Assembly: GCA_015227615.1 (NCBI GenBank)
Contig: JAALGZ010000070.1
Location: 59,291-123,290 of the forward strand
DNA length: 64,000 nucleotides
Source: Labyrinthula sp. Ha
Lineage: Eukaryota; Sar; Bigyra; Labyrinthulida; Labyrinthulaceae
Direction of reading: 5' to 3'
Below, piece by piece: positions 1-44,536 of the stretch. The position numbers were made by a program, and so were the translations under genes. The number at the start of each line of letters is the position of its first letter. Positions within the stretch are counted from its first letter, which is position 1. Under the pieces are notes generated by a model. That model searched no databases. It was not told where the DNA came from and saw only the letters and a list, made by a program, of their open reading frames with translations.

Positions 1-222
1 AGTTTCAATAGGAAGCCAGCGTCTTTACGAATTTCACGGACTCAAAATATCTTTAAAAATCATAAAAACTTACAACGATAAAAAGAGAGCAGTCTTTAGA
101 AGAAAAGGAGTGATAATAAATAATGGAGTCCAATTGACTAAATAAGAATTAAAGAAAAGTAGAAGAAAGACCTGGTCAGATCTGCATCAATATCAAAAAT
201 TGGGGAAAAGGAGAAAATACCA

Positions 223-7646: not shown

Positions 7647-8116
7647 TTTTGACTCTGGGTCAGTGAAAGGAAAAGTGTTCCAGTTTAAGGAAAAAGAAAG
7701 CACGTGGAAGGAGATACAGTCACTTTTGGACCCCTATGCTGAAAACTCGCTGTATTTTAAAACGTTGGTCACTAGCCAGAATACGGAGAATATGAGGGAC
7801 GGAAAACATAAGAAGACACAAAAGAGCAACGCGGCTTGGGTGAACGACGGAACGCAAATAAGTGGTGGAGAAATAAAATAGTTGCAAAAGAGTAAGAGGA
7901 ATATAAATTAATGGATATGAAGTTGGTCAGGTCGCAACGTTGAGTAAAGGGTGGTTAGAAATATATATTTTTATGAACAAGCAGATTTAATTGAAGCAAC
8001 AAAAAAGTAGTTTAAAGTTAAGAAGTATATTATTAGGGATACTTCAGTTAAGTCGCAGAGCAGTAAGAAGTAGAAGAAACGTCAAGCCATCAAGAACATC
8101 CTGTTAAGGTTAAAAT
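7647..8116 (+). repeat. 5' LTR of element B
   Basis: It is nearly identical over 470 bp to 14849-15317, with only scattered substitutions and single-base indels visible. It contains a short open frame (7663-7881) that is the same reading frame which, in the 3' LTR copy, continues the methyltransferase C-terminus. That frame is therefore probably a duplicate of a coding tail and not a gene. Confidence 0.85.
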
Positions 8117-8152
8117 TGAATTCAATTCGTAAAAATTTAAGAAAAAGCAAGT

Positions 8153-9570
8153 ATGGCTACGGGAAAAAGAACTATAATGACAAGAAGCACATCGATATTA
8201 AATAGGATACCACAAGTAGAGGAAGAAGAAAGGATACAGAATGATGTTGATACTTCTCTATCTCAAGAAGAGCAGCAACAAATAACGTCAACCCCAAGTG
8301 AAACAGGGGATGCAAATGGTGTTAATGATAAGTTCGGGTCTGAAGAACAGATTGAAGAAATCGGATCTGAAATAGAAGAAACAGTTGTTCAGACCGATAA
8401 GGAAAATGGTTTGAACGCGACGGATGTTGAAAATATACTAGAAGATAGACTCGCAAAAGTCTTGGAGAGTATGTACCAAAAGGGGATCTTAGCCCCGGGA
8501 CCGAACTTCAATCAATATATAAATACAGAAAAAGAAAATCAGAATAAAAAGTAAATAAACCAAAAAAACAAAACAAAAAAATAGTGAGTTACACAATATA
8601 AATGAAAGAAGGGAAGAAAGCAGGATATCGGATAGACCCGTGCTGGAAAGTTTAGAAGCAGAAGAGGTCGCTAAATTCTTAGTAATGTTCGCTAATTATG
8701 AAGAAATAACAATAAGAAGAGTGATAGGGTTGGATGAATCAGATATCACCAGGAGTTTAAACTAAAAAACTATCTTGGAACTTCAAATGGTTGGGGTCAA
8801 TCCGACGGATCGGGGGAGAAGTTATCTCTTATTTAACAAGGCTTAATGAGCAAAGCTGGAGCGCCCAAAAACACACCTTAGTGCAAAGGGCGAACAAGAA
8901 GCTCAAATGGAAGAACATGGGCGATGTTCACACGTCCATGAGAAAATAGCTGAGTGTGGCAGACAGCCTGATTTTAGTAATGAAAATAGCTGAAGACAAA
9001 TATCTTATGAAAGCCTAGAGTTTACTTGTATTAAAGAAACTGCCATTAACTTTCAGAGGAAAAGATGCAGAATATACCCAGAAATACAAGGGCTGGAAGG
9101 ACTATAATAAAATGAAGATGGAACTTATGTCACTTTCCATAGTCCTTGCCTCCCACGACTATATGGATCCTCAAATGAAAATGAATCAAGGAACCGAAGA
9201 AAAAGGTCCCAGTCGCAAAGTAGAGATTAAACAGGAGGTTCAAACGACTCCCAAAAAGATAGTTGTGGAAGAGAAAAAGCACGGAAAAAGACACAAGCTA
9301 CTGAGTTGGTGGTCCAAAGACCAGAAGAGAAAATATGGAATGGATAAAGGCTTGTGTCTTTACTGTTTTACCGATAACCACAGGGCCGCATCCTGCCCCT
9401 TGTTGGCTGTAAATGGAACAGCTAAAAAAGTGATTGTGGCGCCCAAGGATAAAGAATCTCTGGAGCTACAGACGAAAGTGCTAGTAGAAATACTGAATGA
9501 ATATCAAAGACTAAGTGATGAAGTAGAGAATATAAATGAAGATGAATATGAAGAAGTGGGAAAAGCCTGA
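8153..9570 (+). pseudogene. Gag of element B (acidic N-terminus, capsid remnant, zinc knuckle)
   Basis: A 133-residue acidic, glutamine/glutamate-rich N-terminal frame starts at ATG 8153, 36 bp after the LTR, and ends at 8554. The stretch 8555-9111 contains broken pieces of the capsid region. The frame 9112-9570 holds a basic region and a nucleocapsid-like knuckle, CLYCFTDNHRAASC, of the form C-x2-C-x4-H-x4-C with N where the usual G precedes H. Gag would package the RNA into particles. It is broken by several stops and frame changes in the middle. Confidence 0.65.
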
Positions 9571-11340
9571 ATGGTAAAGATCGTTGAAACTCGGACAGAA
9601 AATGGATTGTGTCAGAAGGATGAGAAGTTATTAGAGACAGGAGAAGAAGGAGAATTTATATCTGAATACGTTGGAAAAAGTGAACCTGGGTTCTTTGAAA
9701 ACATAGAAAAGGATGAGGTGGAAAGAGAAGAAAATAAAAAAGAAGTATACAAACAACTAGACCAGCAAATGCGGAAAATACACAAAGATGACCTATTAGA
9801 AGAGGAACAATGGGAAGAGCTGAAAAAGCTATATTTGGAATATACAGATGTGTTTGCTGTAGGTCAGACCGGGCGCTCAATGAGCCACCTTAGTCCAATG
9901 GAAGTTTTTATAAAACCAGGAGATCAACCCTTTAACAGCAAGCTCCATCCAGTTACTGGAGACAAGAAAAAGATTCTGGAGAAAAAACTGAGGGATCTTG
10001 AAGGAATAGGAGCTCTGGAAAGAGGTCCAAATCCGTACTTTAGCAGCCCTGCGTTCATAGTTCCAAAGCCCCAGAAAAATAAGTACCGAATGGTGATAGA
10101 TTTAACGCGCTTGAATAGAAATACAGAAGCCAACACTGGATCTTTACCTCATTGGGAGACTCAATTCAGCTGGTTACCAAGAAATTGTTTGTATTTTGCT
10201 CTATTTGACACCCTTTCTGGATTTGACATGTTGAGAATAACTCCTGAGAGTGAAAAGTATTTTGGAATATCAACAATGATGGGGGTATATAAATTGAAGT
10301 GTGCTCCAATGGGCTACCACAGTACGCCCTTCATTTATAGTGAAAGGACTATCAGTGAAGTGTTGAACGCAGAAGAACCCCACCTTTTCGGGGCTGCAGA
10401 GGCAGGAGTTTTGCAATGGCTAGATGACAGCCTCCTATATTCAACTAGTTGGGAAGGTTTTTTGAAGGTTAGGCAAGCTTGTCTAGATAGATGCAGAAAG
10501 AAAAACTTAAGGTTGAACCTCCTGAAATGTGAATTGGTTAGTAAAAGCCCCACTTGGTGCGGCAGAGTCATCTCAAAGGAGGGTTGGGCGTATAATGAAA
10601 AACATTACAACAAAATCAAACAAATACCCCGCCCGGTAGACTTCGGTCATCTTGAAACAATATTGCACCTTAGTAACTGGCTTTCGACCAGCATTCCGAG
10701 CTATGCAGAGATACGGCAGTAGCTGTGGGATAGGCTACTCGAACTTACTAGTTTACTTTCAACTGAAAAACAGCGCAAAAACAAGAAAAGAAGGAAACAG
10801 ATTTCAATAGAAGAAAGTTGGACTGAAGGGGATCAGCGAGCTCTAGAAGAACTAAAGTCACTTATTGAAGACACCTGCAAGAAACAACTCTCAAACTATG
10901 ATGCAAAAGCCATAATTGGACTATTTAGTGATGCAAGTGATGGTCATTGGAGCTCTATTTTAGTATGCAAAAGTACGGAAGAGGAGGCATGGAAACCCAT
11001 ATTCTTTCTTTCAGGATCATTCAGACAAGCCAGCCTTCGTTGGAGTGTCACGTCTAAGGAGCTCTATCCCATACCGAAAACATTTACCAGGTTCCGATAC
11101 CTCTTATTGGGGCATCCTACTTCAATAAGAGTTTATACATATCACAATAACCTGGTAGGATTATTTGATGTAAACTCGGGAAACAAAACAAGTACTATTG
11201 GTCGTCTGCAGAGATGGAAGCTTTTAATACAGGAATTCAATGTTCAGTTTGAACATATTCCAGGTGAACAAAATGTAGTGGCTGATTTTCTATCAAGATG
11301 GGGTATAACTATGAAGCACCCAATACGCCGACTGAAGTAG
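9571..11340 (+). pseudogene. Reverse transcriptase and RNase H of element B, one in-frame stop
   Basis: One frame runs from 9571 to 11340 with a single TAG at 10720. RT motifs are RMVIDLTRLN, FDTLSGFDML (metal-binding Asp, about 10204-10233) and QWLDDSLLYS, with the catalytic Asp pair at 10423-10428. The position usually occupied by Tyr in YxDD is Trp. RNase H follows, with GLFSDASDGHWSS, SKELYPI and NVVADFLSRW as three acidic sites. The normally conserved TDH before the loop reads TYH, a possible loss of one catalytic Asp. No protease sequence occurs between Gag and RT. The last 43 bp overlaps the integrase frame, implying a frame change of unknown origin. Confidence 0.8.
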
Positions 11341-13304
11341 AAAAAGAAACGATGCCAGTTCGCATAGATGGTGTCTTAATTAATGTCCCAAAACAAAAGA
11401 TGTTACGACTATTGGGTAGGGATAATCTAGTTGCCAAGGTAGCAGCCCCATCAACTCTTTTGAGAAGCCCGAAATACAGGGAGTTCGTAGAAGCAAGAAT
11501 CAGCTACCTGTTTCCAGATAGAGAACCTCTTCATAAATCCCGAGAGCTGTTAACGACCAAGGATCTATTTGAAATTCAACAGCAGCATAAGAAACCCGAG
11601 TGGGAGTTCAATAGCAAACATGGATGTTACGTCAAATGAAGAAGGAAAATCGTCCCTGTAGGATGGTTGATAAGACTTTTGAGTCAACTCCATGTTTGCG
11701 GTAACTACTCGTCGGAAGAAGCTCTCAGAAAAGAGGCAACGAAGTTTTATTTTCATGAAGTGACTCCAGGAGAATTGGAAGAGGCCGTGAAGCTAGTGCA
11801 TCATTTTTGCCTACACTGTGATAATAGTCCACATATTAAGAGAAGAAGATATACTGCAATAATCCACGCGGAGACATCCAATAAAGTCTTGCATACGGAT
11901 TATTTATATATTGTTAACGGATATGTGTTGGTGTTAACCGATGACTTGAGTAGAAAAGTTTTATTACACTATACGAAGAATGCGAACGCGATAAATGTGA
12001 TCAAAGCAATAGTAAAATGGAAATCAGCTTGTGGTTTACCGGACAAGTTCGTTCTCTACAGTGACCAGGGAGCGCATTTTGCAAATACTCTGGTGAAGGG
12101 TCTAGTAAGGGAACTAAGAGGCAAACACAAGATGAGCACAGCTTATGCACCGTGGACGAACTCGGGTGCGGAGAGAACGAATCGGGTTATATTATCGGAA
12201 ATGCGGTCGCTTTGCAGCGAACTACTTTATGATATGGAAAACTGGCCGGACCTTTTACCAATGGTGGAATGTTTTATGAATAACAGAAAAAGGGAGAGCT
12301 TAGGGTTTACGCCAAACGAAATATTTTGGGGCAAAAGAAATATAGACGCCTTAATGCCGGATGAAAATCAAGAACCGTTTTCAATAGAAGAAACACATGT
12401 AGTGATTTCAAGGGGCAAAGAATGGGATGTCAAACAAGCGTCGGAAACTGCAAGGAGATATATGGAAAGGATTGCGGACAATATGGAAATAGATCATGGA
12501 AAAATATTCCAGCAGCTGGATAGGAAACGTCAAAAAGCCCGTGATAGTCTAAATAAAAGATTCAATGTCCAAGACATACAATACGAAATAGGGGACTGGG
12601 TTCTATTGTCTACTAAAGGAACAAAGGTTCATAGAGAGAAATTGAGATTAAGGTGGGCAGGACCGTATAGAATAACGGGCATAAAAGGAAATCACCTGTA
12701 TGAATTGGAAGATATCAATAAGAAGAAGAAGGAAGCCCATGCCCAACGAATAAAGTTTTACTGCGGAAAATGGATGGAAACTGACGAGCTGGTGAAATCG
12801 GCATGGTTGTACAACGAAGGCAGTTTCGAAGTGGATGAATTTATTGGAGTAAAAGCCTCTCAAGAAGGATACCTACTCCTAATTAGGTGGAAAGGTTTTG
12901 AGTCGTTTGATCCGACTTGGGAGAAGCTGTCAGAAATGGTGCGGGTAGTTCCAGAACGGATTGAAAGTTTTTTGAAGTCTTCATATGGGGGAAGGAGAGT
13001 GAAGGAAGAAATTAAGCGAATACTCAGTGGGTCGGCAAAGGCAGCACAGAGAATACCCCTATACCACTATGTTATTCTAAAATATCCAGTAGGTATAGCC
13101 GCGTTGTCTGAACCTGTGCGACCAGGACTATCAAGGTCAAGAGGATGGATAGATACGGAAAGAGAAGTTTTGGATGCGCTCATCAGATACAAAGGATTTG
13201 GAAAGTGGAACAAAATGCTGAAAGTGGGAGCACTGCCAGGAAAAACAAAGAGCCAGGTGATAAATGAAGTCCAGCAATTGATACGCTCCCAACGTTTAGC
13301 GTAG
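11298..13304 (+). pseudogene. Integrase, chromodomain and SANT-like domain of element B
   Basis: The frame 11298-13304 is interrupted by one TGA at 11637. From 11667 (545 residues) the zinc-binding HHCC region shows VHHFCLHC at about residues 44-51. The DDE triad is visible as LHTDYL (about 77), YSDQGAHF (about 133) and GAERTNR (about 169). A chromodomain occupies about residues 389-427 with LLIRWKGFESFDPTWE, which is expected to bind methylated histone tails and bias insertion into heterochromatin. A Myb/SANT-like helical domain lies near residues 492-542 (RGWIDTEREV, GFGKWNKM). The same frame continues after the TAG at 13302 into the protease region, so this was probably one long Pol polyprotein. 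Confidence 0.8.
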
Positions 13305-14271
13305 TTCACAGGGTTACGAATCTCGTATTTACGTCTACGAGCATTTAATGATTTGCAGCCGGGTTTCAGGAGAAATGGAATATTAGTAGAAACAAAATCG
13401 GACTTACCAAGAGACGAGGGTCGTCGTAGGCTAGAAGAAGTACGAGCACAACTGAAGAATATGGAGGATCAAGTGGATTTTAAAGATATTCCGAAGCTGC
13501 TACCTGCTGATGTTTCTATTATGGCTCTTACAATCGAGGACATTGAAGCGTATCTAGTTTTCTTAGCAACAGGAAGATCTTATTCAGTTTCTCGTCCGCC
13601 AGTAGATAGAGAGAGGTTCCACACAAGAGGATGGGCAAAGAAGAGTGAGAAGTGGTTAGAGATCTCAACTCCGCTCGATAGCGGGGGCCACATTTACTTG
13701 TGGATCGTTCGCGGTATTTGAGAGGCACCTTAAAGTGAAGAAGGATGATGAAACTCATAGCAAACTTAGGAGGGTTGAATTGGCAAACCAAGAAATAGCA
13801 AAGACGGCAGGATATGTATGCGTGGATCTTAAGCTGAAAATATATTCGAACATGCAGTCAAAGGAGTTGATTATTGAAGAGGTGAATATTTACCTGATTG
13901 AAGGCGACTTCACGGATCTTTTAATAGGACGAGATATATTGCAGGCTTTAGGGGCGACCCCTGAGCAAGTTTTACTAAAGACAAGTTCAAAGGAAAAGGC
14001 TTATCAGCTGCGGGCGATGGATCCCGAGACAGAATGGAAAAGGCTGCTAAATCAGGAGAATAAGCGGAAAGTATTAAGAGGTAGGCTGCAGCAGGAAATC
14101 AAACATGTATGCTCAAAGGTGCCGTACGGACTATGGATGGATAAGAAGAGAATAACCTGTGGCTCTTGGCAGTTTAAATTATCGAAGGGAAACTGTTTTT
14201 ATGCTTGGAATAAAGATTTGCCAGAGAGTTTTAGGTTTGAAGTTTGGATCCAGCCTCCATGTAGTCAGTAG
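13305..14271 (+). pseudogene. Relocated aspartic protease region of element B, frameshifted
   Basis: The frame 13353-13721, in phase with integrase, encodes a charged linker and ends with TPLDSGG (about 13668-13690), the retropepsin D-S-G motif. The conserved residues that should follow continue after a one-base frame change; the second frame (13735-14271) contains LLIGRDILQALG, the C-terminal protease motif (I-G-R-D-x-L). A further 110 residues of unassigned linker precede the methyltransferase. This protease lies after integrase, chromodomain and SANT, not before RT. Element A shows the same protease-methyltransferase adjacency. Confidence 0.75.
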
Positions 14272-15083
14272 TATGTGCTGGATGTCTTCGAGTTCGTGGA
14301 AAGAAAAGAGAAGTATGATATCATAGTCATCGATTTTCCGTGGAAAGGATCCGCCTCCAGCACGCCTACGAGAGGGATGACGTTATCGTAAGAAACATTA
14401 CCCGATGCGGATCTATTTAGAGTTCCCCTGTCCAGATTGGTTTCAAGTGGATACGCATGTGTTTGGGTTCTTTCGAATAAGCTTAAGGTAGTTACAGAAT
14501 GGTTATCTGGGTGTGGGTTCGAAATCGAAGAAGTCTTGGTATGGGTGAAGAAAACTCGATTAGGTAAGAACTTCATTACGCAAGGAGGTCTCCTTTTACA
14601 TAATAATGAGATTTTATTAATTGCAAAAAGAGAAAGGTTTAAAGGTGCCAGAAGACATAAATTCTTGGATGTTTGTATGCTCCTCATCGATATCCTTCGC
14701 GAAAACCGGATGAATTATATAGACTCATAGAGGACATGTTTCCAAGCTGCAGAAATTTAGAGCTGTTTGGAAGACGATGGAACTGCAGATCGAACTGGAC
14801 TAGAGTGGGGAAGGAGGTGCTGGAAACTGGAACTTTAGAAGGATGCAGTTTTGACTCTGGGTCAGTGAATGGAAAAGTGTTCCAGTTTGAGGAAAAAGAA
14901 AGCACGTGGAAGGAGATACAGTCACTTTTGGACCCCTATGCTGAAAACTCGCTGTATTTTAAAACGTTGGTCACTAGCCAGAATACGGAGAATATGAGGG
15001 ACGGAAAACATAAGAAGGCACAAAAGAGCAACGCGGCTTGGGTGAACGATGGAACGCAAATAAGTGGTGGAGAAATAAAATAG
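14272..15083 (+). pseudogene. MT-A70-type methyltransferase domain of element B, frameshifted, tail runs into the 3' LTR
   Basis: The domain starts near 14280 with YDIIVIDFPW; the catalytic motif at 14332-14343 is DFPW instead of DPPW. There is a stop near 14390. From 14437 the frame reads VWVLSNK, VLVWVKKTR, then HNNEILLIAKRE, matching the family H-x-x-E-x-x-L-x-G segment. After a frameshift near 14680 it continues with SRKPDELYRLIEDMF and NLELFGRRWNCR, clear MT-A70 hallmarks. The last frame continues about 230 bp into the 3' LTR and stops at 15083. The methyltransferase would use S-adenosylmethionine to modify adenine; whether DFPW is active is unknown. Confidence 0.75.
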
Positions 15084-15317
15084 TTGCAAAAGAGTAGGAG
15101 GAATATAAATTAATGGATATGAAGTTGGTCAGGTCGCAACGTTGAGTAAAGGTTGGTTAGAAATATATATTTTTATGAACAAGCAGATTTAATTGAAGCA
15201 ACAAAAAGTAGTTTAAAGTTAAGAAGTATATTAATAGGGATACTTCAGTTAAGTCGCAGAGCAGTAAGAAGTAGAAGAAATACCAAGCCATCAAGAACAT
15301 CCTGTTAAGGTTAAAAT
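14849..15317 (+). repeat. 3' LTR of element B
   Basis: This is the direct copy of 7647-8116. Its first 235 bp is open in the frame of the methyltransferase. Similarity to the 5' LTR ends at 15317, after a run ending TTAAAAT. Confidence 0.85.
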
Positions 15318-17983: not shown

Positions 17984-18353
17984 TATTGAGGTTTTCCGTC
18001 CTTGTAAATAAGTAAAAAAAAGACGCACGTAACCAGAACGTGTGAACGCAAAGATATTAAAAGCAGTCAAGTGTATTCTTGACAGTAAAGTATCCAAATA
18101 TAGCTCCAAAAACAATAAATAGTGAACGAAGACTTTCTTTATTCCAAACTTGACTTTTATTACCACCAATAACGGCTATATTTCACTGTTTCAAATTGCA
18201 TTTAATGATGTGTTCATATGACACTAGTTCCTTTAAATCATGAATATCACAACTGCATAAATATGCACCCTTATTTCAAAATCAAGTCAGCTCAGTTATC
18301 ACATCAATCGGAAATGAAGTGACACTTCCTGATAAACCTGTTTCTACTCAACA
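17984..18353 (-). repeat. 3' LTR of element C
   Basis: Matches 24974-25342 with a few substitutions. The terminal dinucleotide has drifted at its 3' end (CAATA where the 5' LTR has CAACA). Confidence 0.85.
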
Positions 18354-18490
18354 CCCCCCCCCCCCTCATCACTTTATTACCGCTTTCACAATATATCAAC
18401 ATATAACATACCCACTTATAACATAACCTCATCCCCTACTGACAACCATCCCTCTCTTAAGTTGTTATTTCTAGCAAATAAATCCACCTT

Positions 18491-19084
18491 CTAAACTCCA
18501 TTCTTGCACAAGCTATCGATTCTTTCATAGAACTCAACTGGTTTACACGAATTACCAGCTCTCACACCGAAGATAAGCTCCTTACCAAAAAACCTCGTTT
18601 TTAATTCTCTCGGAAATTCTCCCACAAGTCCTATAAGACATTCCTCCTTACAACTACCAGTAACTACACCTTGCGACAAAACTATCTTTTCATGTGTCGA
18701 CATTTTCACCCACAAAAATCTCCCTAAATAATCAATCCCGTTTCTTTCCATCAACTGCAAAGTTATCTCCTTTTTTGAAGGTAAAGTCCAGCTGAAAAAT
18801 AGTATATTTCTCCCCAAACTTTTTAAATTTAGGAGACCAATATCAGCATCACTCATTGTGTTGTATATAATCTGCGGACCTCTCACCGGATCTGAAGAAA
18901 AAATACGATATGGTGGGTCTATAGTAACTACTGGAAACCTCTCAGTACAGGTTGCCAGATAATCCTGAACCTTCATTCGACATGTTCTTGCGCCTATTGT
19001 TTTTTTCCAAAAATACATTCTCAACTTTCGTCCAATCACATCCAACCTTACCAAGTTCGCAATAGCCGACTTCTCAAAACTACA
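18491..19084 (-). pseudogene. MT-A70-type methyltransferase domain of element C
   Basis: This open frame follows directly, in phase, after a TAG at 19085-19087 that separates it from the SANT frame. The catalytic motif VVTIDPPY is at 18908-18919 (DPPY), followed by FSSDPVRGP, NTMSDADIGLL, an FLWVKM strand, SCKEECLIGLVG and a C-terminal KPVEFYERID matching the family's KP-x-E-x-Y-x-x-I-E. This is a divergent subgroup shared by C, D, G and H, different from the A/B type. The 190-residue segment has no internal stop, so the domain itself is intact. It is probably produced as the tail of Pol. Confidence 0.72.
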
Positions 19085-20119
19085 CTACGCTATAACAAAT
19101 TCACTCCCCATGAAATCAGTGTTGATGATCTTTCTGGCTTTCTCTCTATACACCTCAATCTCCTTTCCTCTATTCAACAGTTTATCAATCAAAATAATCA
19201 TCACCTCTCTCAACTCCTTCACAGAGCGAGACCACTTTGGTAGTCCGTTCCATTCAACCTGACCTCCACGAATCAGCTCATTTAATTTACTGAGAACCTT
19301 CTTTAATCCTTCAACAGATAAGAAATCATACGCCTCAACACCTTCAAACCGATTAACCGCCAAATCGTTCTCTTGATGCATTTTAGCATATCTCCATCTC
19401 GTGAACATCATCCTAACTATCTTCACCTTCTTGCTCAAAGGTAGACCCAGAACCCTGTACTTATCCCCAAAGCTTGCGATGTTTTGCTTTCTAATCTTCT
19501 CCAAATTAAACTTCAAACCATGAAACTTCTCTAATGATTGCTTCCGAATATACCTCTGTATATAATTATAAATTTGCTGCTTGCTTTTGCTTGGCAAATG
19601 TTTCCTGATCATCTCAAAGTTCCCCATCCCATACACTTTGATGCAACACTTCAATTCTTCGAACTCATAAATACTCCAATTCCTTTGGATGATCCGACCA
19701 TCAGCTTCTACTATGACAAGATCTTTCTCCACCTTCCTAATTAGATCATCCACTATATCAACTTTCCTTTGCTCAACCTTATTGACTTGCAGATTTCACC
19801 AATATACACTTTCCGGAAAAGCCAACCTAAGAAACTCCGTCACCTCCAGTTTCCATTCAGATGACGTCCTGCTTAAGAAACCTATAATCATTGCAGGTAT
19901 ATCATCAAACAGCGAGAATGCAGCTTCCCAGGTGTCCCTGTCCATCCCGAAACCCTTCCATCTCACCTTGAACTGAAACTCCCCACCTGAGGTTTTTCTT
20001 ATATCCAATATCTTCTCCACCTCCAGGCGATCATGGTCCAGAATACAAACCGCTCGAGTATCTGCGCTGGGTAAGAAGCTGCTGGGAGCGTAAGGGATAA
20101 GTAGACTAGCATGTCTCAC
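19085..20119 (-). pseudogene. Chromodomain and SANT-like region of element C
   Basis: The frame 20119-19796 holds the chromodomain: RLEVEKILDIR, then VRWKGFGMDRDTWEAA. The frame 19753-19085 begins with a Myb/SANT-like helix set (ELKCCIKVYGMGNFEM) followed by SKQQIYNYIQRYIRKQSLE and a HGLKFNL segment. This last module recurs in D, G and H and looks family-specific. A frame change between 19796 and 19753 interrupts the two. These domains would bind chromatin and position the integration complex or methyltransferase. Confidence 0.7.
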
Positions 20120-20149
20120 TTTCTCATTACCCTCTAAATCCTTGATCTT

Positions 20150-21759
20150 TTACAGCGTGTTGGAGATGATTTCCACAATCTGGACGGGTCCGGTCCACCT
20201 AGGGCGACACTTATCCTTATGGCCCGATTCAAATCCTTTCTCGGAGAGTAAAACGTAATCACCCGGGTGAAAGTTTATTGGTCTCAGTCGCTTATTTATC
20301 CTCTTGTTGGCTTGGTATCGGTACAACAGTCCCTTCCTATATGCATCCTCCCGGTAGCTTCTTATCCCCTCCTGTAGCTCCTCCGATATTCTTCTCAAGT
20401 TTTGTGCATCACGATCAGCTAGCTGCAGCATCTCACCTCCAATCAAAGATACCCTAGGCTTCACTCCCATCAACAATTCCACTGGGAATTTATTCCCTCC
20501 TCTACAGGTTAGCGGCGTGGAATTCAAAAAAAGCTTGCACCATCAAAATAACTTCACTCCAACGATTGGATGGCAATCCCAGTTCAGAAACAAGGGATCT
20601 CAAGTACCGAAGAACCTCTCGGTTCTGCACTTCGACCATACCAGCGGTCTGCGATATGTACGCTGCAGTTACTCGATGAGTACCGTTGCAGCTCCTCAGA
20701 AAATCATTCACCAACCGGTTAACAAAGTGGCTACCTTGATCGGTAACGAGTAAGAATTCAAACGCAAGATGGAAATGCGAGTGTCACTTCCATAGTGCCT
20801 TAACTACCTCCTTCACTTCTACCTTCTGACAGAAATATAATAAAATTGTTCGCGTTAAACTATCAATCACTGTAAGTATCCACCCTGACCTGTTAATGTA
20901 CAGGAAATCGCTAAATAATACTTGGCGTGCTTCTCTTCCAAATTCAGTAATATTCAAAGGTCTTTTTATGATTAGGGAGCGCCGCTGATAATGCAGACAC
21001 TGCTTCCTGAATCTCTTCAGCGTTTGCAGAAATAACCCTTTCAATCCCTTCTCAATAGAATAATGTTTCCTAATAAATTCAGCTTCCCGTTTCTCAGCCC
21101 CATGGTTGAAGACTACATGCGCATGCACTATAGCATATGGAATCAGGTGTCTAGACAGAACTATCTTTCCTTTCTCTCTGCGTACTTCCCTCAGGTTCGC
21201 GTTATCAAGCTGATGTATCTTCAGAACAAACAATTCATCCATCACCCCCAAGATGTAGCAGGGCTACGATTCCTACTGGAGTGCCTCCCGCTCACATGAA
21301 AGCTGTCTACTAATTTCCAATATCCTTCCTCTGCACGAGTCACTATTTTCACTGCGATCTGTTCCTCCCCAGTGACCTCTGGGTTCATCCAGCGACTGAT
21401 GATGTCTGGAGGAATATTTCTGTAGCCAGGTAAATGATACACCTTCAGGTTCATGGTCGTAAAATTGGGTGCTCAACGACCTAGTCGTGCAGCGTAAGCT
21501 TTTATGTGAACCTGTTTTGGTGACAATATTCCCACCAAGTTCCGATGATCCGTGAACAGGATCGTTTCGCGGAAATTATACAGCAAATAATAAGGGAACT
21601 TTTAAGGGCTACCACCACTGGAAACAATTCTTTCGAACTTATGTGCCTGTCGAATGCTGACCCTTTAAAGGTCCCGATAGTCATGGAAATAATTCTGATG
21701 TTCGAAGCGTACGGATTCTCGATGTTTACTTCTTCTTCTGTTTGGGCCAGAATTAGACT
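20150..21759 (-). pseudogene. RNase H and integrase of element C, several frameshifts
   Basis: RNase H pieces follow RT: SSKELFPVVVALK (about 21640) and NIPPDIISRW (about 21410). Integrase begins with HAHVVFNHGAEKR and QCLHYQ, where the last zinc-binding Cys is replaced by Tyr. The first catalytic Asp is in LFSDFLYI, the second near 20740, and the Glu in MVEVQNREVL (20650 region). The C-terminal part to 20150 includes the GDYVLLSEKG segment seen before chromodomains in this lineage. At least three frame changes are visible. Confidence 0.7.
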
Positions 21760-23082
21760 CTAGTAAAAATCGCTAGCATCGCAGAAAATGTAGGTAGGTT
21801 CCAGATGATTGTAATGGCCTAGAGTTCGATACAATGATTTTTTCAGCGCCTCTTTCAGTTGTTCAAAGGCTTTTTTCATCTCATCCGTCCATTTTATTAA
21901 CAACTTCTTCCTTTCTAGTGTTTCGATCTTCCCCGCTACACTGCAGTTCTTTGTTATTCTGTGGTGTAACTTAGAAAATCCTGGTAAAATAGAACAAAGG
22001 AAGTTGGCCGTGTAAATGAACTGGGCTAACTCATGCACGTATTTTGGATTCGCCCGAGATAATAGCTCATCTACATATGAACGGTCATACTGGTCTCCGA
22101 AACCATCCACTTTCCTTCCACAGAAGGTAGCAAATAAGCCCACCAGGTGACATTTATCCACATTCAGTCGTAAATTCAATTCTGCTATTCTTTTCAGGTA
22201 TCTTTCCAATATTTTGAATAATTCTTCTTGTGATGTAGCCATAATGACGGTATCATCAATCCATTGCATACAGTTCCTTGGCCATATTTCAGCTTTTAAT
22301 AGTACATCGTAGATCTGGCGCATGCTGAACAACGATGGCGTGTTGCTCCATCCCTGAGGCGCTCCTTTAAAACTATATGCCACCCCTGACGGGGTAGTGA
22401 AAGTAAATAAACGCCCTGTTTCCATTGTGCAAGGCAAATAATCGAAGCCCGAAAATAAATCAAAGGAACCAAAAAACTTCATCTTCCGCGCCCGCAACAG
22501 CTGTACTTCTATCTTTGGCAAACTATTACTCACCTTCTGCGTTATTCTGTTAAGTGGGTGGAAATCAACCACCAGCCTAAACTTCTTAGGCCCTTTTTCC
22601 GGTACAACCAGTACCGCCATTGCCGTAGTCGGGTTGTTGTTAACCCGAATGATGCCGGCCTTTAGCATCTGCTTAAGCCTACGATCAAGAAATTCTTCCT
22701 GTTTGTAGCCTAGTGGGCGCTGGTTTAATACACCTACCGACTTACCCTCCATGATATTACATTCAATTGAAGGTAAGCTACTCAATACAGTAGGAAACTC
22801 TCCATCTCCAAACGAACCACTGTATTTCACAAATAGGGATGTAAATCTTGTTCTCCACACCTCAGAATTGTTGAAGACTTTAGGATCCAAAGAGCTCATC
22901 ATTGTTAACAACTTAGCTGCTATTCTTTTTTTATCCTCCTCACGGCTTACGCCCAGATTAGCTTCAACATCAATCTTCCCATCATTGTCAAAATCTTCCT
23001 CTTCATTCTCTGGATCGAAATTAACTGGTTCTTCTGAGCAGAGTTTCACGGGCCAAGATATTGCCCTAACTATCTGTTCGAA
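21760..23082 (-). pseudogene. Reverse transcriptase of element C
   Basis: A continuous 429-residue frame (23049-21760) stays in phase with the protease upstream. RT motifs are FRLVVDFHPLNR, FFGSFDLFSGFDYL and MQWIDDTVIM, with the catalytic Asp pair intact and Trp in place of the usual Tyr. APQGWSNTPSLF corresponds to the template-grip motif. The frame ends with the beginning of RNase H (FCDASDFY). The core RT appears intact. Confidence 0.82.
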
Positions 23083-23853
23083 TTATTTCTCTGGAGGCAA
23101 AATATATTCCACATCATCATCATCTTTTTCCACTTCAAACTCTTCTAGCTTTAAGACTCTCTCATCCTTCCATTCCTCCATCTCTCTAAACCAGTTAACA
23201 TCTTTCTTGTACATTGCGGTTACTCTCTTCACAGTAGCCACTTCCTCCAAGAACCAATCCACTAGTGGATAGCTCTGCTCTATCACCTTCACTTCTTCCT
23301 TGTTCGTTTGCATCTTATTCCTCAAAGTCGAAATCGGGTCTAAACAACGACATCTCAGAACGTCATTTCCAATTATTATATCGTCCCATTTTTCAACTTC
23401 TAAAATCATAGCGTAAACATTCGGCAAAATATATGTAGTAGCATCAATAAAAATTTTCACCTTTTTCATGTACCCAACCTCATGCACTTAATATTGAGAT
23501 CCAACTGCCGCAACTACCTTCACAGAGTTCCTTAGTTTAACTACCTCCGTACAGAATTTTTTCAACCTGGAGTTGATAGCGCTTCTGAAAGCACCACTAT
23601 CCAACAAGGCAAAAAACATCTCATCTCCTCCATTGATTCTTACCTTAACTTCCGCATCCATCTGCACCCTGTTATATCTAACTATCTTAGGGCCATCCTT
23701 AAAACTCTTCTCTACTCTACTCGCCACAGTATTTCTCTCCACTAAACAGTTCATCATGATGTCATTTCCAAACAAATCGTTAGCGTGTTGAATTTGATCA
23801 ACCTCATAATCCTCTCCCTCTTTGATTTCATTCAACTGAATTATTTTTGTATC
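23083..23853 (-). pseudogene. Aspartic protease of element C, one in-frame stop
   Basis: FALLDSGAFRSAI (about 23600) carries the D-S-G catalytic motif; after an in-frame TAA at 23488 the second half contains DIIIGNDVL, the C-terminal protease motif. It lies between Gag and RT in the ordinary Gypsy order, in contrast to elements A and B. Confidence 0.75.
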
Positions 23854-24061
23854 TTAAGAACGTTTACTTTCATCTATGGATATTTGTGTTTGGTTCATTG
23901 CCTCTGTCAGACCCGTAATAATATAAGCATTATCCCTATCTTGCTCAATGCCAGCAACATTATTATTCTCATGTGTTTCTCGTTTCTGATCCTCCTTCTT
24001 CTTTTTCCACTTCTTAATATATTTGTCCCATCTTTCATTAAGTATTCTCACACTAGGCCGT

Positions 24062-24865
24062 TCATATCTCGGCTTGCCATGTTTTTTTCAACCAGCATCT
24101 TGCTTCATGATGCCCAAAGGAAAAACAGTAAAGGCATAAATATTTCTCTTGAAACCTGCACTCCCCACCATAATCGGTTTTCTTGACAGCTATCCTCGTA
24201 ACGTTCATTTCCTTTGCCCTCGCTATCACGTGTTCCGGGGGTATGCAAGACATAATATATTTTTTGAGGTTTTTCCTATCTTTACTTTTCAGATCATTCC
24301 TGGTCTCCAAATCCTTGTGTCTCACCCAAATGTAATTAGGGAGTATTGAGAATATGGCCTTCGCTTTCTGCTTGGGTTTGATTTCTGCACTAGGCGGTAA
24401 TTCCGCAACTAACTTGCTCACTTTGATGAAAATCAATTCCACAGCTTCTTCGGGTTCGATATCTTCTATGAACTCTACATATTTTTTGATCATCTCTCCT
24501 ATGGTTAAATCTTCTCTGATCTTATTCTTTTTCAATTTCTCCTTCAAGTATTTTATGATACTCTCATTAGATACCGTTTTCCCCAACGCTTCCATTGCTT
24601 CGTAAGCTTTAAAAGAAATTCTTTGCTTTAATTTAACCACAGTCTTTTGTTGATCTCTCAAACGTTTGTATTGGTCTTAAAATTTCTCAAACCCTTCGAC
24701 CGAAAAGTCTCCAAGTTCCTCTATCTCGGGAGTTTAATTTACTAAAGTTCCCATAAGGGTGATTAATATTTTCACATGATCTTCGTTTAATTCTTGTAGC
24801 ATCTTCTTCATTTGAGCTTGATTCATCGCTCTAGGAGTAGTCTCTTTCTTTTCCACTCCACTCAT
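24062..24865 (-). pseudogene. Gag of element C (capsid and zinc knuckle), two in-frame stops
   Basis: It starts at ATG 24865 (MSGVEKKE) and is in phase to 24062 with two TAA codons near 24735 and 24680. Near its end it has a conserved YIMSCIPPEHV segment also seen in D and G, then a zinc knuckle CLYCFSFGHHEARC of the type C-x2-C-x3-G-H-x4-C. A 65-residue highly charged linker (24051-23854) in another frame leads to protease. Confidence 0.75.
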
Positions 24866-24973
24866 AATTTCAGACCCTTAATAGAATATCACTTGGTTTC
24901 TTCTTATTCCACTTCTTAAAAACTTCTCTGTATAAAATTCACCTTAGTTCCAGGAAATTTTTCAATATTGCAA

Positions 24974-25342
24974 TGTTGATGTTTTCCGTCCTTGTAAATA
25001 AGTAAAAAAAGACGCGTGCAACCAGAACGTGTGAACGCAAAGATATTATAAGCAGTAAAGTGTATTATTGACAGTAAAGTATCCAAATATAGCTCCAAAA
25101 ACAGTAAATAGTGAACGAAGACTTTCTTTATTTCAAACTTGACTTTTATTACCACCAATAACGGCTATATTTCACTGTTTCAAATTGCACTTAATGACGT
25201 GTTCATATGACACTAGTTCCCATAAATCATGAATATCACAGCTGCATAAATATGCACCCTTATTTCAAAATCAAGTCAGCTCAGTTATCACATCAATCGG
25301 AAATAAAGTGACACTTTCTGATAAACCTGTTTCTATTCAACA
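24974..25342 (-). repeat. 5' LTR of element C
   Basis: It pairs with 17984-18353. The Gag ATG is 109 bp downstream of its inner edge (24974). Confidence 0.85.
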
Positions 25343-25364: not shown

Positions 25365-26042
25365 TATTGCACTTCACGTCTTCTAAATGTATGTACTTAA
25401 GACTTCAGCGGAAAGAAATATGCGACTTGACCAGTAAACTTCAAACAATAGATAATAGAAATATAAATCCTAACTTTGTATGTAAAAAATTCGCTTACGA
25501 ATAAAGACTTCTTCTTTTATATTAAAAAAACTTCTTCAAATTATTCGTGTTAACGGCTTATTTATTTCAAAGACTAACTATTCCAAAGATGCTAAATATG
25601 ATATATTTCCAAGTATTTCTGATACCAAATTATGCTATTTTAGTAGGTAACTATAGTGTTTTACTTCCTACAAATCCATCTCACATTATCTCACTTCAAT
25701 CGTGATTAACGGTACTCCACTTCAAATCCATATCAACCAATGTCACGTAATGTAAATTCATAGCATAAAAACATCAATAAAATGCACACCCTCATATAGC
25801 ATCACGGGCAAAAATATCACCAAATACGAAAGTAAAAAGACAACAAATATATCCCCAAATCATATAAAAATGACAAAATCTTCCAGAAAACATCACAGAA
25901 AGTGTCATAAACATCCTATCGCCATTGTAAATATAACGAGTAACTCTCATATAACAAAAGTAAAGTTTCTTTGAACCAAAAATCGTATCTCACGCTTAAG
26001 AATCCTCGTAAGCTAAAAAATATAACAGTGGAACACACAACA
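25365..26042 (-). repeat. 3' LTR of element D
   Basis: Near-identical to 32388-33069; differences are mostly single substitutions and short A-run indels. Confidence 0.9.
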
Positions 26043-26150
26043 TTGCCCCTTACAGCATAACATGTTTTAGAGTTCGTTTCCTAAAGTAAATTAGTTTTCC
26101 CTTAAGTTGTTTTTCCTACCAAATAATTCCAGGAAAAGAGCATTTTTTGT

Positions 26151-26610
26151 TCAATTCTTTTCAAGTAACTCATATAATTCAATTGGTTTTTCAGAATTTC
26201 CAGTGCGTCTTCCATATAAGATTTCCTTGCCTAAAGATCTAGTAAGCAACACTTCTGGTAAATTGCCTTTAACACCCAAAATAAATTCTTCTGTACATCT
26301 CATGTTAAGATTCCTTAAAGTTGACAAAATCTTATCATACCTGTTTGTCTTAACCCAAATGAACCTACCCATTTTTCGTTTTCCGTTTTTCAGAAATAAG
26401 ATTTCCACTACTTTCTTCTTTCCTCTTACTAACCACACACAGAATAAAGCGTTCTCTATAACCCTGTTTAGATCTTATTCTCCAATTTCAATTTCGCTCA
26501 TCGTAGTGTATGATACTGCAGGGCCTCTGATTGAATCTCCAGAGAATTCTCTCCGAGGAGGATCTATAACTACAATATCATATTTTTCTTCTGCATGAAG
26601 AAGAGAGTCT
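26151..26610 (-). pseudogene. MT-A70-type methyltransferase domain of element D
   Basis: YDIVVIDPPR (motif at 26553-26564) replaces the final aromatic residue of DPPW/Y with Arg. It is followed by SIRGP, YTTMSE, a stop, then the frame 26438-26151 with FIWVKTN, CTEEFILGVKG and GNSEKPIELYELLE. The aromatic residue of this motif normally packs on the target adenine, so DPPR is unlikely to be fully active. Confidence 0.65.
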
Positions 26611-27099
26611 CGTACCTCATCAGAATAAAAGCTTCCAATACTTCCTGCTCCCCATTTGAATACAATGCAATTCAGTTTTTTTAGTCAATTTTTAACAGAT
26701 TCGGAGTCTTACATCGTTCCACACTAAAATCTTCAGTTTTTTAGGGAATATTCTTACCACTCTCTATCATATACTCTAACTTATCCATAGCATCTGAAAT
26801 ATCCTTTTCTCTTTTCCTTAAATCACTCCATAAAGTTTTCAAAAATTACAAAAATCTTTTCGTGATCCTGAATATTTCAGAAAATAAAAGGATAAATCTG
26901 CGTCAATTTTTCTAATATATTTCAACATCTGCTGTACACCATAAGCGTATGTAAGGTTAATGACTTGCAGCTTAATCTCTTTCTCCTTCTAACATACTTC
27001 TTCATGTTGTTTTGCATATTTCCTTTTAAATAAATACTTCATCATCAAAGCTTGTTTGCTACTTATAGGCTTCTTATGAATATAATATTGTTCTCCAGT

Positions 27100-27760
27100 A
27101 AAACGAAAATTATCCTACCTCAAAATATTAACATCTAAATATAATCCATGACAGAATTTTAAACTTTGTCTTCCTGTCAACTTCTGCAACTTAGTATAAA
27201 TCTGTTGCTTATTCTTACCTGAGACAACTCCTTCAACCCAGCAAAATCATCAAAACCTATACTTAAAGTACCTTGCCTCAAAGCCTCTGTTTCAAAATTA
27301 GACCAGTAGAATCTTTGCCACTCTCCTGTAGCATTTATTATAATTTTCTCATAAACCAACTTTTTAGGATAAGATGATTCCTCTGTAGAACCCATAGTAT
27401 ATAGAGCTCTCACACCAGCATCAACTTCAAACTTATCAGGATATAAAACTTTTAAATATTGAAAAAGGTCCCTCCTCAAAGATCCAGGGTTTTTTAAAAT
27501 AAGCTCTTCAACTAGCTAAGGAATATCTTTGTACATCGTAGTTACTGGCTCGTGTGTATTTTTGGACTTACTAAAACCACGCCAGCGTACCTCAAAAGTT
27601 AAATTCTTTTCATCTTCCTTCACAAGTTTATCTAAACTTTTAACTTCAAGTGTTTCTTTATCCATGGAATAAGTTAGTTTAGTAGGTGGGTTGGGTAAAA
27701 ACCACACAGGAGCAAAGGGAATAAGTAAGGTGGAATGCCTAACTTTTGTCTTTCCGTCCA
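27100..27760 (-). pseudogene. Chromodomain and SANT-like remnants of element D
   Basis: The chromodomain remnant (about 27700-27516) reads LEVKSLDKL...FEVRWRGFSKSKNTHEP. The frame 27479-27177 then ends in a SANT-like segment (GFDDFAGLKELS). In an adjacent frame (27225-27120) KNKQQIYTKLQ and RQSLKFCHGL match the module seen in C, G and H. Stops and frame changes separate these pieces. Confidence 0.6.
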
Positions 27761-28760
27761 CATCCTGCACCTCATAAATGTGCTCAGTAATGACCCCGGG
27801 GATTTGACATGGCTCGCACCACCGTGGTTTAGCTTTGTCTTTGCTACCTGATGCTACTTCTTTTTCAGATAACCAGACTTGTTCTACCGGGTGGAAGAAT
27901 ATCGTTTTAGCGTTTCCACTTCTTCTCAAGTTATTCTTGGCTCTGTATTCTAGTCCACAGATACTTGCTTTCTCTTGTAATGCCATTAACTTCGCACGAA
28001 AATCCACCGCAGCCCTCTCTAACTTCTTGAAACCAGCTCTTTCCATGTTCTTATATACACTACCTAAATCACATCTCTTTTCATCTGTTCTAATCATAAG
28101 TTGTAGCGGTGACAACTTAGGTTCCATACAAGTAAGAGAGACTGATTTATGAATGTTTGAATCATTGGTAAAATATCGGGCCAATCTTCATTTCCAAGGT
28201 AAAACTCGCTAAGTAAAGTTCGTAAATGCCTAAGATCTCTTTGTTCTGAGCTTCGGTAGCGCCAGCAGTATGCGACACATACGTCGCAGTGAACTTGTGT
28301 ACACAACCGCTATCCTTTAAAAAATTTTCAACTACACATGTGGTAAAATGGTGACCCCTGTCCGTCACCAGGGTAAACCGATCCCTTTATTGAAACACAC
28401 TTTTCTAGTCCCATAATATAGAGACCAATTGATCTGTGGTTGCTTTCCTAAAATATCTTAAAATAGTTGTTCTGGTAAGGCTGTCAACCAGAGTTAATCT
28501 CCAACCTTTTGAATTAATATAGAGGAAGTCAGATAAGAGTACTTCCCCAGCTTTTGCAATCTATTCCATTGTATTGAAAGGGCGTCTTACTATCAAGCTC
28601 GGCTTTTGAAAATGCGTTCCCTGCCATTTAAAAGCACGGTGAACCTCATTAAATAAAGTTTCAGTTCTTTTTCAATAAAATAATTCTTTTTTATGAAACC
28701 AGTTTTTGTCATCTTTGATCCATGGTTGTACTAAATATGGGTATGAAGCAATACAAATTG
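27760..28760 (-). pseudogene. Integrase of element D, broken
   Basis: Fragments include a LVTDRGHHF-like second catalytic Asp region (about 28365), TAAYVS/ATEAQNKE carrying the Glu (about 28250), and NPLSC-like and VWLSEKE segments typical of the integrase C-terminus in this lineage. The HHCC region near 28700-28800 is badly degraded. Confidence 0.55.
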
Positions 28761-28967
28761 TATCATAGACTTAGTGATTACCAACTTGCCATCCTTCTTA
28801 AATAGTCTTTGAACACATTTCTTGTTGTCTTTAGCTTGCAGCTTCAATAGAAGATCGTCATCTATATTCTGCCATCCAATATCCAGAAGATTCAGACTTC
28901 CAGGATGTCGCGGCAGAACATGTAACAGGTCAATAGATCTCCAAAAATAAATCTCTGTACTCCTATC

Positions 28968-30560
28968 CTAACTTCTAGATATAGCTTTGCAAATAACGTC
29001 CAAGACCATTCCATCATCTCTATACTTCGGATTCAACCATATTGACAAACAATCTGCAGGGATGTTATGATAGCCATCAAAGTGATGAACTATCAGATTC
29101 AGCTCCATAAATTCCGTTGCCCACCTGCTAAGACTTGAAGCGTGGGTCTTAAGTTTGGTCTCTTTTGGGTTCAACACTTATACTAAGTTTTTGTGGTCAG
29201 TGAAAAGGACCTTTTCTTTGATGTTGTATCTCAAGTAATATAGAACTTCTTTGCTGATATTAATACAGGAAATAACTCTTTGCTAGAAATATGCCAGTTT
29301 AACGACGACCCACCAAGACTTCCTGAACCCATAGCGATGACTCTGAAATTACTAAGAGATGGGTTTATTCTGTCCACCTTCTCTGCGGTCTGGGTAATGA
29401 ATAAACTATAAAATTTATCGCAAGCATCAGTAAAAAGGTAAACATCCTCTTCAGGCTCACAATATCCCAAAGAGTGAGTCATAGACTCTTTTATCGCCTC
29501 GATCATGTGGTCATAGGACTTATTCATCTCCTCAGTCCAATCTACAACCAACTTCATTCTTTCTAAATTCTTCAGCTTACCTGTGACCTTATTACTACCC
29601 AATAGTAATTTGCGAATTCTTGAGAACCCTGGCATCGATGCAGAAATAAAACTTGCAGTGTAGAAGAGTTGTGCAAATTCATGAAGATATACAGGTTTTA
29701 CCCTGTCAAGTAGACCTTTGGCATAGCAGCTATAAAACTTCCAGCCGTCCTTATCTACTTCTCTGCCATAAAATTTTAACCTGTTCGACATCAATTCACA
29801 TTTCTCTAGATTCAGCTTTAAATTCTTTCTTTTAATCTGCTGTAAAAATCTCGACGTATTATCATAGAGTTCCTGTAATGTATTCCCCATGATAATAGAG
29901 TCGTCAATCTATTGCAAGAATTTCTTTGGCTAAAGTTCACAAGGCATCAAAGCTTCTTCAATCTGTCTCATAGAAAATAAACTAGGGACATTACACCAAC
30001 CCTGTGGGGCTCCTAGGAATAAATAGGATACTCCCCAAGGTGTAGTGAACGTAAAATACTCTCCTGATTGCTCCTCGCAAGCTAAATAGTCGGAGCCAGA
30101 AAGCAAATCGAGTCCATCGAAAATTTATTTCCCTTCACCCTGTCTAACTGGACATTAATTTTTGGTAAAGTGTTAGTGACTTTCTTAGTCACCCTATTCA
30201 AAGGCTTGAAATCCACCACTAGCCTAAAGCGTTTAGGTTCTTTTTTGGTACTACTAAAACACTAATGGCGATGGTAGGATTTTTATTGACCTGTATAATT
30301 CCTGCACGTAACATTTGCTCAATTCGTTTAAATAAAAAATCTTCCCGCTCTTGCCCCAATGGGAATTCTTTCTGAACCCCTACATAAATTCCTTACAGAA
30401 TATCGCAGCAGATCGGATGTATGTCCGATAACTGCGTATAGCTTTCCGAATCTCCGAATGCTTCGGGGTTCCCAGCGAACAGATTCTGAGACTTCGTTTT
30501 CCATATAGCAGAACCTTCAAAATTGTCGAGCGGTAACTCTGCCACTTTTTTTTTAAAAAC
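28968..30560 (-). pseudogene. Reverse transcriptase and RNase H of element D, broken
   Basis: RT pieces are visible: FRLVVDFKPLNR, and the IDDSII catalytic loop near 29900, where the preceding Trp codon has become a stop. The frame 29890-29231 continues through the thumb into RNase H with LFTDACDKFYSL and SSKELFPVL. The frame 29177-28968 supplies NIPADCLSIWLNP. The Asp pair itself survives, but the chain is interrupted several times. Confidence 0.65.
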
Positions 30561-30858
30561 CAACTCCTTTATGCGCTGGTCATCTTCTTTCTTATCTGAA
30601 ATATCAGCCCCGCGCCTACGTCAACATTTTCCATTCCTAAGAACTCATCCTCTTTGGGCCAATCCCATCCGAAAACTTCTGGAGGTATCCCATTCTTGTT
30701 ACAGAGGTACTCTTCCTGTAGTCCAATGGAATTCACCTCTACCGACTCTTTACCTACCACATTCACAAACCATTGTGCCAGGTTAGTTCTAACTTTGCCC
30801 GGCTTCTATTCCCCCATTCTTCTTTCCAAAGCACTGAGGGGATCCAATCCATATCGGC

Positions 30859-31302
30859 TTAAAATGTCATTTTATAGAATAATATAGCCCATTCAGGAAC
30901 TTCTAGGATTATAAGATCGACATCTTTTGGCTTAAACGTATTTAAACCGGGGTTTTCGCTTTTAAAATCCATTTCTATAACAAGTCCTACTTCATGTATC
31001 GGGTATACTACACCCCTGGCTGCTTGTACCCGAATGGGTTTATCCAAAGTCTTTAATTTATCATATCGACTTTTGTGTTTTCCATTCCTCACACTTCTAA
31101 ACTCACCTGAATCCAATAAACCCGTAAGATTTATCTCCAAAAACTCCACTCGAATAACTGAGTTATTTTTCACCGTTGCTATTTTATTCACTTCTCCGTC
31201 TCCTTCATCTACTCTCTGCAAAAAACTGCCAAATTTTATAGCACTGGCACTACATGCCTTTTTCCTTTCTTTCCAAGAGAAAAAAATCCCTAGGGCATTC
31301 AT
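30859..31302 (-). pseudogene. Aspartic protease of element D
   Basis: The frame contains GLLDSGEFRSV, with D-S-G followed by Glu where Ala or Thr is usual, then the conserved YPIHEVG segment aligned with C. The C-terminal glycine motif is degraded (DVDLIILEV). It is located between Gag and RT. Confidence 0.6.
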
Positions 31303-31499
31303 CGAGAGCTAATAACTGATTTTCCTCAAAGCAACTCTCAGTCATCTTTTCCAAGCCAATTTTCTCTACTTTCATATCAAGCTTCTTTGCAGAAATCACG
31401 TGACTCTTATTCTTCTTAGCCATGTATACTGCTAGTCTTTTTTTCTATTTTCTCTCGACCTGGAAAAGGTTCAGCAGGCTTCTTCGCCTTCAAAGCATA

Positions 31500-32288: not shown

Positions 32289-32387
32289 ATTAAGGGGTCT
32301 ATCCGTTATGTTTATTTTCTCTTATCAATCAAATATCTGGTAGCTCAAAAAGTTTTAAAAGTTCTCCTCAGCTTCACGGTATAGCAA

Positions 32388-44373: not shown

Positions 44374-44536
44374 TGTTGATAAATTGGTATATTTGAACTG
44401 AACTAAAATAATGAATTAGGAATAACAAAGTGCTCATTTCTATGGGTGCTTTATAATTATAAATATGTTGAGGAAATATCATATTGTAAAAGTAGGGATG
44501 CAAAAAAAAAGAATCTTAAAATAAAACCGTTGTATA
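44374..44536 (+). repeat. 5' LTR of element G (partial extent)
   Basis: It pairs with 51486-51644. The true right edge may lie further on, because the 3' copy is truncated. Confidence 0.65.

Follow-up and report, generated by a model that had tools for sequence, protein, structure and literature searches.

An MT-A70 domain in six Ty3/Gypsy copies of a Labyrinthula contig

Contig JAALGZ010000070.1 of Labyrinthula sp. Ha contains, at contig positions 59291-123290, a stretch of 64,000 nucleotides (hereafter the window) with six copies of Ty3/Gypsy retrotransposons, named A, B, C, D, G and H. In all six copies a domain of the MT-A70 family of adenine methyltransferases is present, preceded by a domain that was initially described as SANT-like and is treated below as a relative of the Tetrahymena protein p1 (Table 1). 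The Pfam MT-A70 profile (PF05063) significantly matched copies A and C and a piece of copy D, with the E-values listed in Table 1, as well as pieces of copies B (E 4.5e-8) and G (E 4e-5 and 2e-6). A 30-residue piece of copy H tested against Pfam gave no match. Positions 51976-52386 of copy H align to the MT-A70 domain of copy C with 49% identity (E 4.9e-39), and the MT-A70 region of H, taken in pieces, matches the domain of an intact relative at E 3e-40. Because of these E-values, chance can be excluded as the source of the MT-A70 matches in the window.

When domains of other copies were used as tblastn queries, copies B, C, D, G and H each revealed reverse transcriptase (RT), integrase, chromo region, p1-like domain and MT-A70, in this order and on a single strand. 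Copy A comprises only the p1-like and MT-A70 domains within the window, its integrase being located just upstream at contig positions 57740-58144. The initial annotation of this DNA had placed an MT-A70 domain after integrase, chromodomain and SANT-like domain in all six copies, which is borne out by the Pfam matches, the match to copy C and the domain order obtained by tblastn.

The methyltransferase frame is broken in five of the six copies. In copy C, a TAG at 19085 closes the frame of the p1-like domain and the methyltransferase frame continues in phase, and a further TAG, likewise in phase, stands at 18491 ahead of the last motif of the MT-A70 domain. In copy H, the TAA at 52460 is followed by a frame change about 28 codons further on. 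The earlier statement that the methyltransferase frame of these two copies is separated by a nonsense codon only thus holds for C and fails for H, where the frame changes as well.

Table 1 Positions of the Ty3/Gypsy copies and their domains in the window.
Feature	Position	Strand	Basis
Copy A p1-like DNA-binding domain (start at or before window start)	5..196	+	domain comparison
Copy A AMT1/MTA1-like MT-A70, single open frame of 232 residues	857..1513	+	Pfam E 2.9e-30
Copy B element, LTRs 7647-8116 and 14849-15317 (97.7% identical)	7647..15317	+	LTR pair
Copy B integrase	11805..12341	+	Pfam rve in open reading frame 11640-13304; tblastn
Copy B p1-like domain	13137..13538	+	domain comparison, tblastn
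Copy B MT-A70, broken (stop codons, frame change)	14191..14819	+	Pfam on piece, tblastn
Copy C element, LTRs 17986-18353 and 24976-25342 (95.1% identical)	17986..25342	-	LTR pair
Copy C integrase	20523..21014	-	tblastn
Copy C p1-like domain (initially described as SANT-like)	19433..19702	-	PDB p1 E 3.2e-6; tblastn
Copy C MT-A70, DPPY motif, in phase with p1-like frame	18425..19078	-	Pfam E 4.1e-12; tblastn
Copy D element, LTRs 25365-26042 and 32388-33069 (97.7% identical)	25365..33069	-	LTR pair
Copy D p1-like domain, two frames	27061..27329	-	tblastn
Copy D MT-A70, broken	26070..26678	-	Pfam E 9.5e-14 on piece; tblastn
Copy G old element, LTR pieces 44378-44534 and 51488-51643 (80.9% identical)	44378..51643	+	LTR pair
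Copy G p1-like domain, weak	49813..50043	+	tblastn E 3e-6
Copy G MT-A70, broken	50539..51058	+	Pfam on pieces, tblastn
Copy H integrase	53930..54514	-	Pfam rve in open reading frame 52460-55165; tblastn
Copy H p1-like domain	52907..53155	-	tblastn
Copy H MT-A70, broken by TAA at 52460 and frame changes	51902..52546	-	match to copy C and to intact relative
LTR, long terminal repeat.

Intact elements and their spread through the genome

The host genome was searched in its 50.8 Mb and 153 contigs; loci of this genome are labelled L0nn. Among the best 150 of 354 MT-A70 candidates, 18 are located in frames that run for 2,000 or more residues without a stop. Twenty loci, a non-representative set selected for long frames, were examined over stretches of up to 10 kb each. 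Eleven of them contain a single frame of 2,107-2,660 residues with MT-A70 at its end; nine of the eleven possess an LTR pair, and in all nine the frame ends close to the 3' LTR. These single-frame copies elsewhere in the genome confirm the initial proposal of a fused ancestral form.

The two LTRs are 100% identical in L018, 99.8% in L012, 99.1-99.5% in L011, L013, L014, L024 and L027, and 87-98.9% in L009, L010, L015, L016, L017, L019, L020, L021 and L022, while no LTR pair of at least 200 bp was found in L023, L025, L026 and L028. Repeats of 4 bp, seen by eye, flank L009, L013, L017 and L018. The lineage is diversified and probably still active. A palindrome-like stretch (TTGGATCCAA or TTGAATTCAA) was observed just inside the 5' LTR, at the expected primer site, in L009, L011, L017 and L018.

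In L018, L024 and L025, Pfam searches with separate pieces identified, one after the other, RT, RNase H, integrase and MT-A70; the chromo profile matched L018 (E 2.3e-5) and L025 (E 0.024) and gave no match in L024. In the elements, two LTRs enclose gag-pol, and RT and RNase H come ahead of integrase, as in Ty3/Gypsy. A protease motif is found ahead of RT in L020, L024 and L027 and between the p1-like and MT-A70 domains in L009, L012-L019, L022, L025 and L026, where Pfam also reports a protease in L025 (E 3.6e-4) and, marginally, in L018 (E 0.037). None was found in L021, L023 and L028, the frames being partial in several loci. A protease so close to the C terminus of a Gypsy Pol is unusual.

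The union of three genome searches yielded at least 316 distinct MT-A70 places, the host gene and fragments included. Among the 150 integrase matches listed, 134 are followed by MT-A70 no more than 3 kb downstream; for the remaining 16, MT-A70 was read directly in L029 and in window copy B, two are located at contig ends, and 12 are others. Likewise, MT-A70 is present within 4.5 kb in 110 of the 150 RNase H matches listed. In this genome, members of this Gypsy lineage usually carry MT-A70, and the initial annotation, which made its proposal depend on the domain being the majority state, is upheld in this respect. No relatives turned up in IMG/VR with two domains as queries, and plasmid records gave no match.

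The methyltransferase domain is of the AMT1/MTA1 kind

To place the domain, it was scored against two AMT1s and METTL3, in a table that, like the tree described below, leaves out repeat loci and pieces of fewer than 130 profile columns. In all 35 rows the score to one of the two AMT1s exceeds that to METTL3, and in 34 the score to Tetrahymena MTA1 alone does so. A P-x-R-G insert after the catalytic motif, the AMT1 insert, is present in 32 of the 34 rows that cover it, with variants in window copy A and L032. The combination of METTL3 as best match and a missing P-x-R-G insert was not encountered in the elements. In a tree that comprises neither AMT2/5, AMT6/7, METTL14 nor METTL4, deep branches are not separated, and elements plus AMT1s as one clade are compatible with the data (p 0.453). 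By score and insert, the element domain belongs with AMT1/MTA1, the writer of N6-methyladenine (6mA) in DNA, rather than with METTL3.

Two other sources were considered and dropped: METTL3, as the score table favours AMT1, and a phage origin, phage MT-A70 sequences showing 28-31% identity (20 listed of 250) and all five that were read lacking the P-x-R-G insert. Beside the intact copy of L027, a second, divergent MT-A70 (134.7 bits) was observed at 9358-9888 on the minus strand, perhaps belonging to a neighbouring element.

A p1-like partner domain and the cellular 6mA genes of the host

The domain preceding MT-A70 matches Tetrahymena p1 at E 5.2e-18 over 140 residues in L018 and at E 5.9e-14 over 97 residues in L025, while the match of window copy C (E 3.2e-6) extends over 70 residues only. 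Other Myb chains match the L025 domain at 5e-4 or worse, and in L018 and L025 the Myb domain is accompanied by a stretch beyond it as in p1. The putative SANT-like domain is, judged by sequence, related to p1, the subunit through which the AMT1/MTA1 complex binds DNA. Among the 150 p1-like matches listed, 136 have MT-A70 451-992 bp downstream; the other 14 are two host p1 genes, window copy B, L029 and 10 others. The elements are almost certainly a chromodomain-type Ty3/Gypsy lineage, with a Pol that ends in a fusion of a p1-like Myb domain and an AMT1/MTA1-like MT-A70.

In the genome search with p1, two separate host genes rank first and the elements follow. The host p1 gene (L049 1336-2490) matches p1 at E 5.9e-34, and a second p1-like gene is located at L050 1216-1899. 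A separate host AMT1 gene (L008, E 3.7e-73 to MTA1) and a p2-like exon (L055, E 6.6e-8) were also found. No METTL3 gene is among the matches listed, the best match of the METTL3 query being the host AMT1 gene (43%). Two further observations concern host genes: Tudor-like matches in the C-terminal part of L049, to chains of lysine demethylase 4, are weak (E about 0.05), and host EF1A (L053 1024-2370, 70% to a human segment) is without the 12-residue insert typical of opisthokonts, which speaks for a host that is probably neither animal nor fungus.

According to the available text of PMC12695648, p1 and p2 occur exclusively together with AMT1. The strongest sign that the captured function would be DNA 6mA writing is that one polyprotein unites relatives of two subunits from a single complex. 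The initial annotation had also suggested that the element may mark its RNA, and MT-A70 might indeed put N6-methyladenosine on element RNA as METTL3 does on mRNA, given a fold common to METTL3 and AMT1 and the almost equal scores of L018 to MTA1 and METTL3. This option is weakened because the domain is of the AMT1/MTA1 kind and not METTL3: one of the two AMT1s outscores METTL3 in every row, the AMT1 insert is common to the elements, and the partner domain is the p1 of a DNA complex. We therefore regard RNA marking as improbable.

The cellular subunits still encoded by the host also allow for interference, in which element p1 and MT-A70 would compete for host AMT6/7 and p2, resulting in less host 6mA and disturbed gene marking or defence. 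The element does hold the two subunits that would engage these partners. Pure competition, however, has no need of the catalytic residues that are kept in most rows, and we consider this scenario very improbable.

Constraint on the captured domains

The ratio of nonsynonymous to synonymous substitutions (dN/dS) was compared in eight pairs. For MT-A70 it amounts to 0.06-0.08 in the three comparisons that include L018, where bootstrap upper limits do not exceed 0.15, to 0.058 in L036/L037 and to 0.09-0.23 in four other pairs (upper limit of 0.58 for L009/L010). The p1-like domain shows values of 0.06-0.14, and comparably diverged pairs give 0.04-0.15 for integrase and 0.03-0.07 for RT. Pairs with very few changes scatter, reaching 0.43 for MT-A70 and 1.81 for integrase, and dS is saturated in distant pairs. 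Purifying selection acts on both captured domains; for MT-A70, where such selection had been named as a check, dN/dS is far below 1 in the compared pairs. In RT and MT-A70 trees of 17 loci, in which the placement of L023 and L028 is unsure, well-supported groups agree (Mantel r 0.94, 0 of 2000 permutations), as would be expected if the module had been taken up once or a few times and then inherited together with Pol.

The broken methyltransferase frames of five of the six window copies could be taken to mean that methyltransferase genes and Gypsy copies are adjacent by chance, or that captured DNA is drifting. This is already contradicted by the fixed spacing at more than 100 places, the single intact frames, dN/dS values far below 1 and the agreement of RT and MT-A70 trees, and its probability is negligible. 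The proposal of a Gypsy Pol ending in MT-A70, ancestrally fused, conserved and constrained, is supported by the sequence data, and an adenine-marking activity of the element appears plausible.

Among 34 rows the catalytic motif reads DPPW in 23, DPAW in eight, DPPY in two and DPPG in one (L019), so that DP is present in all 34. Residues across MT-A70 are invariant or nearly so in lineages that are 23-43% identical to L018. These data bear on the main rival to marking, namely targeting, which needs no methyl transfer: the p1-like and MT-A70 domains, like the chromodomain, would anchor integrase at active chromatin that is rich in ApT or marked by 6mA. In favour of it, integrase and chromo are immediately followed by the module in one frame, the subunit p1 binds DNA, and DPAW or DPPG would be harmless to binding. 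Retention of DPPW in most rows and of DP in every row argues against it, as do the near-invariant residues in such distant lineages and the conserved aspartate, which by residue count is the position mutated in an MTA1c structure (D209A; 8xyx). We consider targeting alone possible but unlikely.

Other elements in the window

Two copies of a non-LTR-type retroelement, 99.5% identical, occupy 57233-60081 and 61153-64000 (the contig end) on the minus strand. A 972-residue frame (57375-60293) contains RT and a CoiA-nuclease-like match. The sequence TTAGGGTTAGGG at 57228-57239 adjoins the first copy, and an array of 20-bp repeats extends over 56524-57349; the element is possibly telomere-linked. 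Between copies A and B, a 774-residue frame (5131-7455) has a predicted AAA-ATPase match (PF09820, E 1.2e-22). A Copia-like element is located at 33119-37496, with 176-bp repeats (93% identical) and Pol_BBD and integrase matches at 33735-35234.

A proposed role in marking new insertions

Some copies have RT - RNase H - integrase - chromo - p1-like - MT-A70, in this order, as a single intact frame. Because relatives of two subunits of the cellular 6mA machinery follow integrase and are kept by selection, the elements may apply, or at a minimum attach to, the mark that such cells place on active genes. In the mechanism that we propose, the module would enter the nucleus with the pre-integration complex, the p1-like domain would bind the new copy or its flanks, and MT-A70 would methylate adenine in ApT of the new copy. 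The new insertion would thereby bear the mark that the host places near the starts of active genes and would escape silencing; host partner subunits (AMT6/7, p2) may be borrowed. As a whole, the reading of a Gypsy lineage with a 6mA-writer-related module that marks new insertions seems to us somewhat probable, while for its functional part the scales are level. The specific form in which a hijacked two-subunit 6mA-writer fusion, delivered with integrase, applies a euchromatin mark to its own copy as a natural single-chain AMT1 writer is put forward tentatively, with slightly less than even confidence.

Several points weigh against this reading. The AMT1 partner MTA9 (AMT6/7) was not seen in the element, and an AMT1-MTA9 heterodimer is thought necessary. 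Catalysis may have been lost in some elements, namely the DPAW subfamily, L019 with DPPG and the two DPPY rows. The L018 domain is nearly tied between Tetrahymena MTA1 (112.8 bits) and METTL3 (111.3 bits), and for L016 the METTL3 score is slightly above that of Tetrahymena MTA1. AMT2/5 stand outside the comparison, and in the tree the elements do not come out as a single clade, with one clade not rejected (p 0.234).

In the available text of PMC12695648, 6mA marks active genes and shows no enrichment on transposable elements in published maps, and a review, as far as its available text extends, considers it unclear whether 6mA causes permissive chromatin or follows it (PMC13297926). An element with its own writer would thus allow cause and consequence to be tested.

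Comparison with known systems

Among the open-access papers listed, taken without bioRxiv, subscription papers and repeat databases, we found no report of MT-A70 in a Ty3/Gypsy element, nor of AMT1 or p1 in a retroelement. A paper that deals with the accessory domains which retrotransposon polyproteins carry (PMC6338049) makes no mention of MT-A70, and the available portions of PMC12695648 and PMC13297926 do not mention AMT1 or p1 in a retroelement.

Methyltransferase retrotransposons already known carry cytosine or Dam-like enzymes, according to the available text of PMC5890265. KnitGypsy-Dnmt3 of Klebsormidium and the DNMT retrotransposons of Symbiodinium also place a DNA methyltransferase, under purifying selection (Ka/Ks <0.2), in a retrotransposon, in KnitGypsy within the Gypsy Pol. 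Their enzymes, however, are cytosine methyltransferases of the DNMT fold, and no second complex subunit is mentioned in that text, whereas the Labyrinthula elements carry a predicted adenine methyltransferase of the MT-A70 family. DIRS elements likewise combine an LTR-bearing retroelement with an adenine methyltransferase, but their N6A methylase is bacterial Dam-like, in contrast to the AMT1-like MT-A70 plus p1 in Ty3/Gypsy described here (PMC5890265). In orchids, Ty3/Gypsy elements have likewise acquired an adenine-modification domain, an AlkB m6A demethylase; as described in the available text of PMC9289625, this is an RNA eraser in an additional open reading frame of 25-kb elements, whereas here a predicted writer is fused to Pol.

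The ciliate AMT1/MTA1 complex (MTA1c), composed of MTA1, MTA9, p1 and p2, has kin of its catalytic and p1 subunits in the element. Compared with MTA1c, the element fuses these two subunits behind integrase, and no MTA9 or p2 part was seen. In the Labyrinthula elements, what was captured is related to the eukaryotic 6mA writer, with two subunits fused in one retrotransposon polyprotein while the host keeps its cellular genes; by its predicted domains, this is a Ty3/Gypsy lineage with a Pol that ends in a p1-AMT1 fusion.
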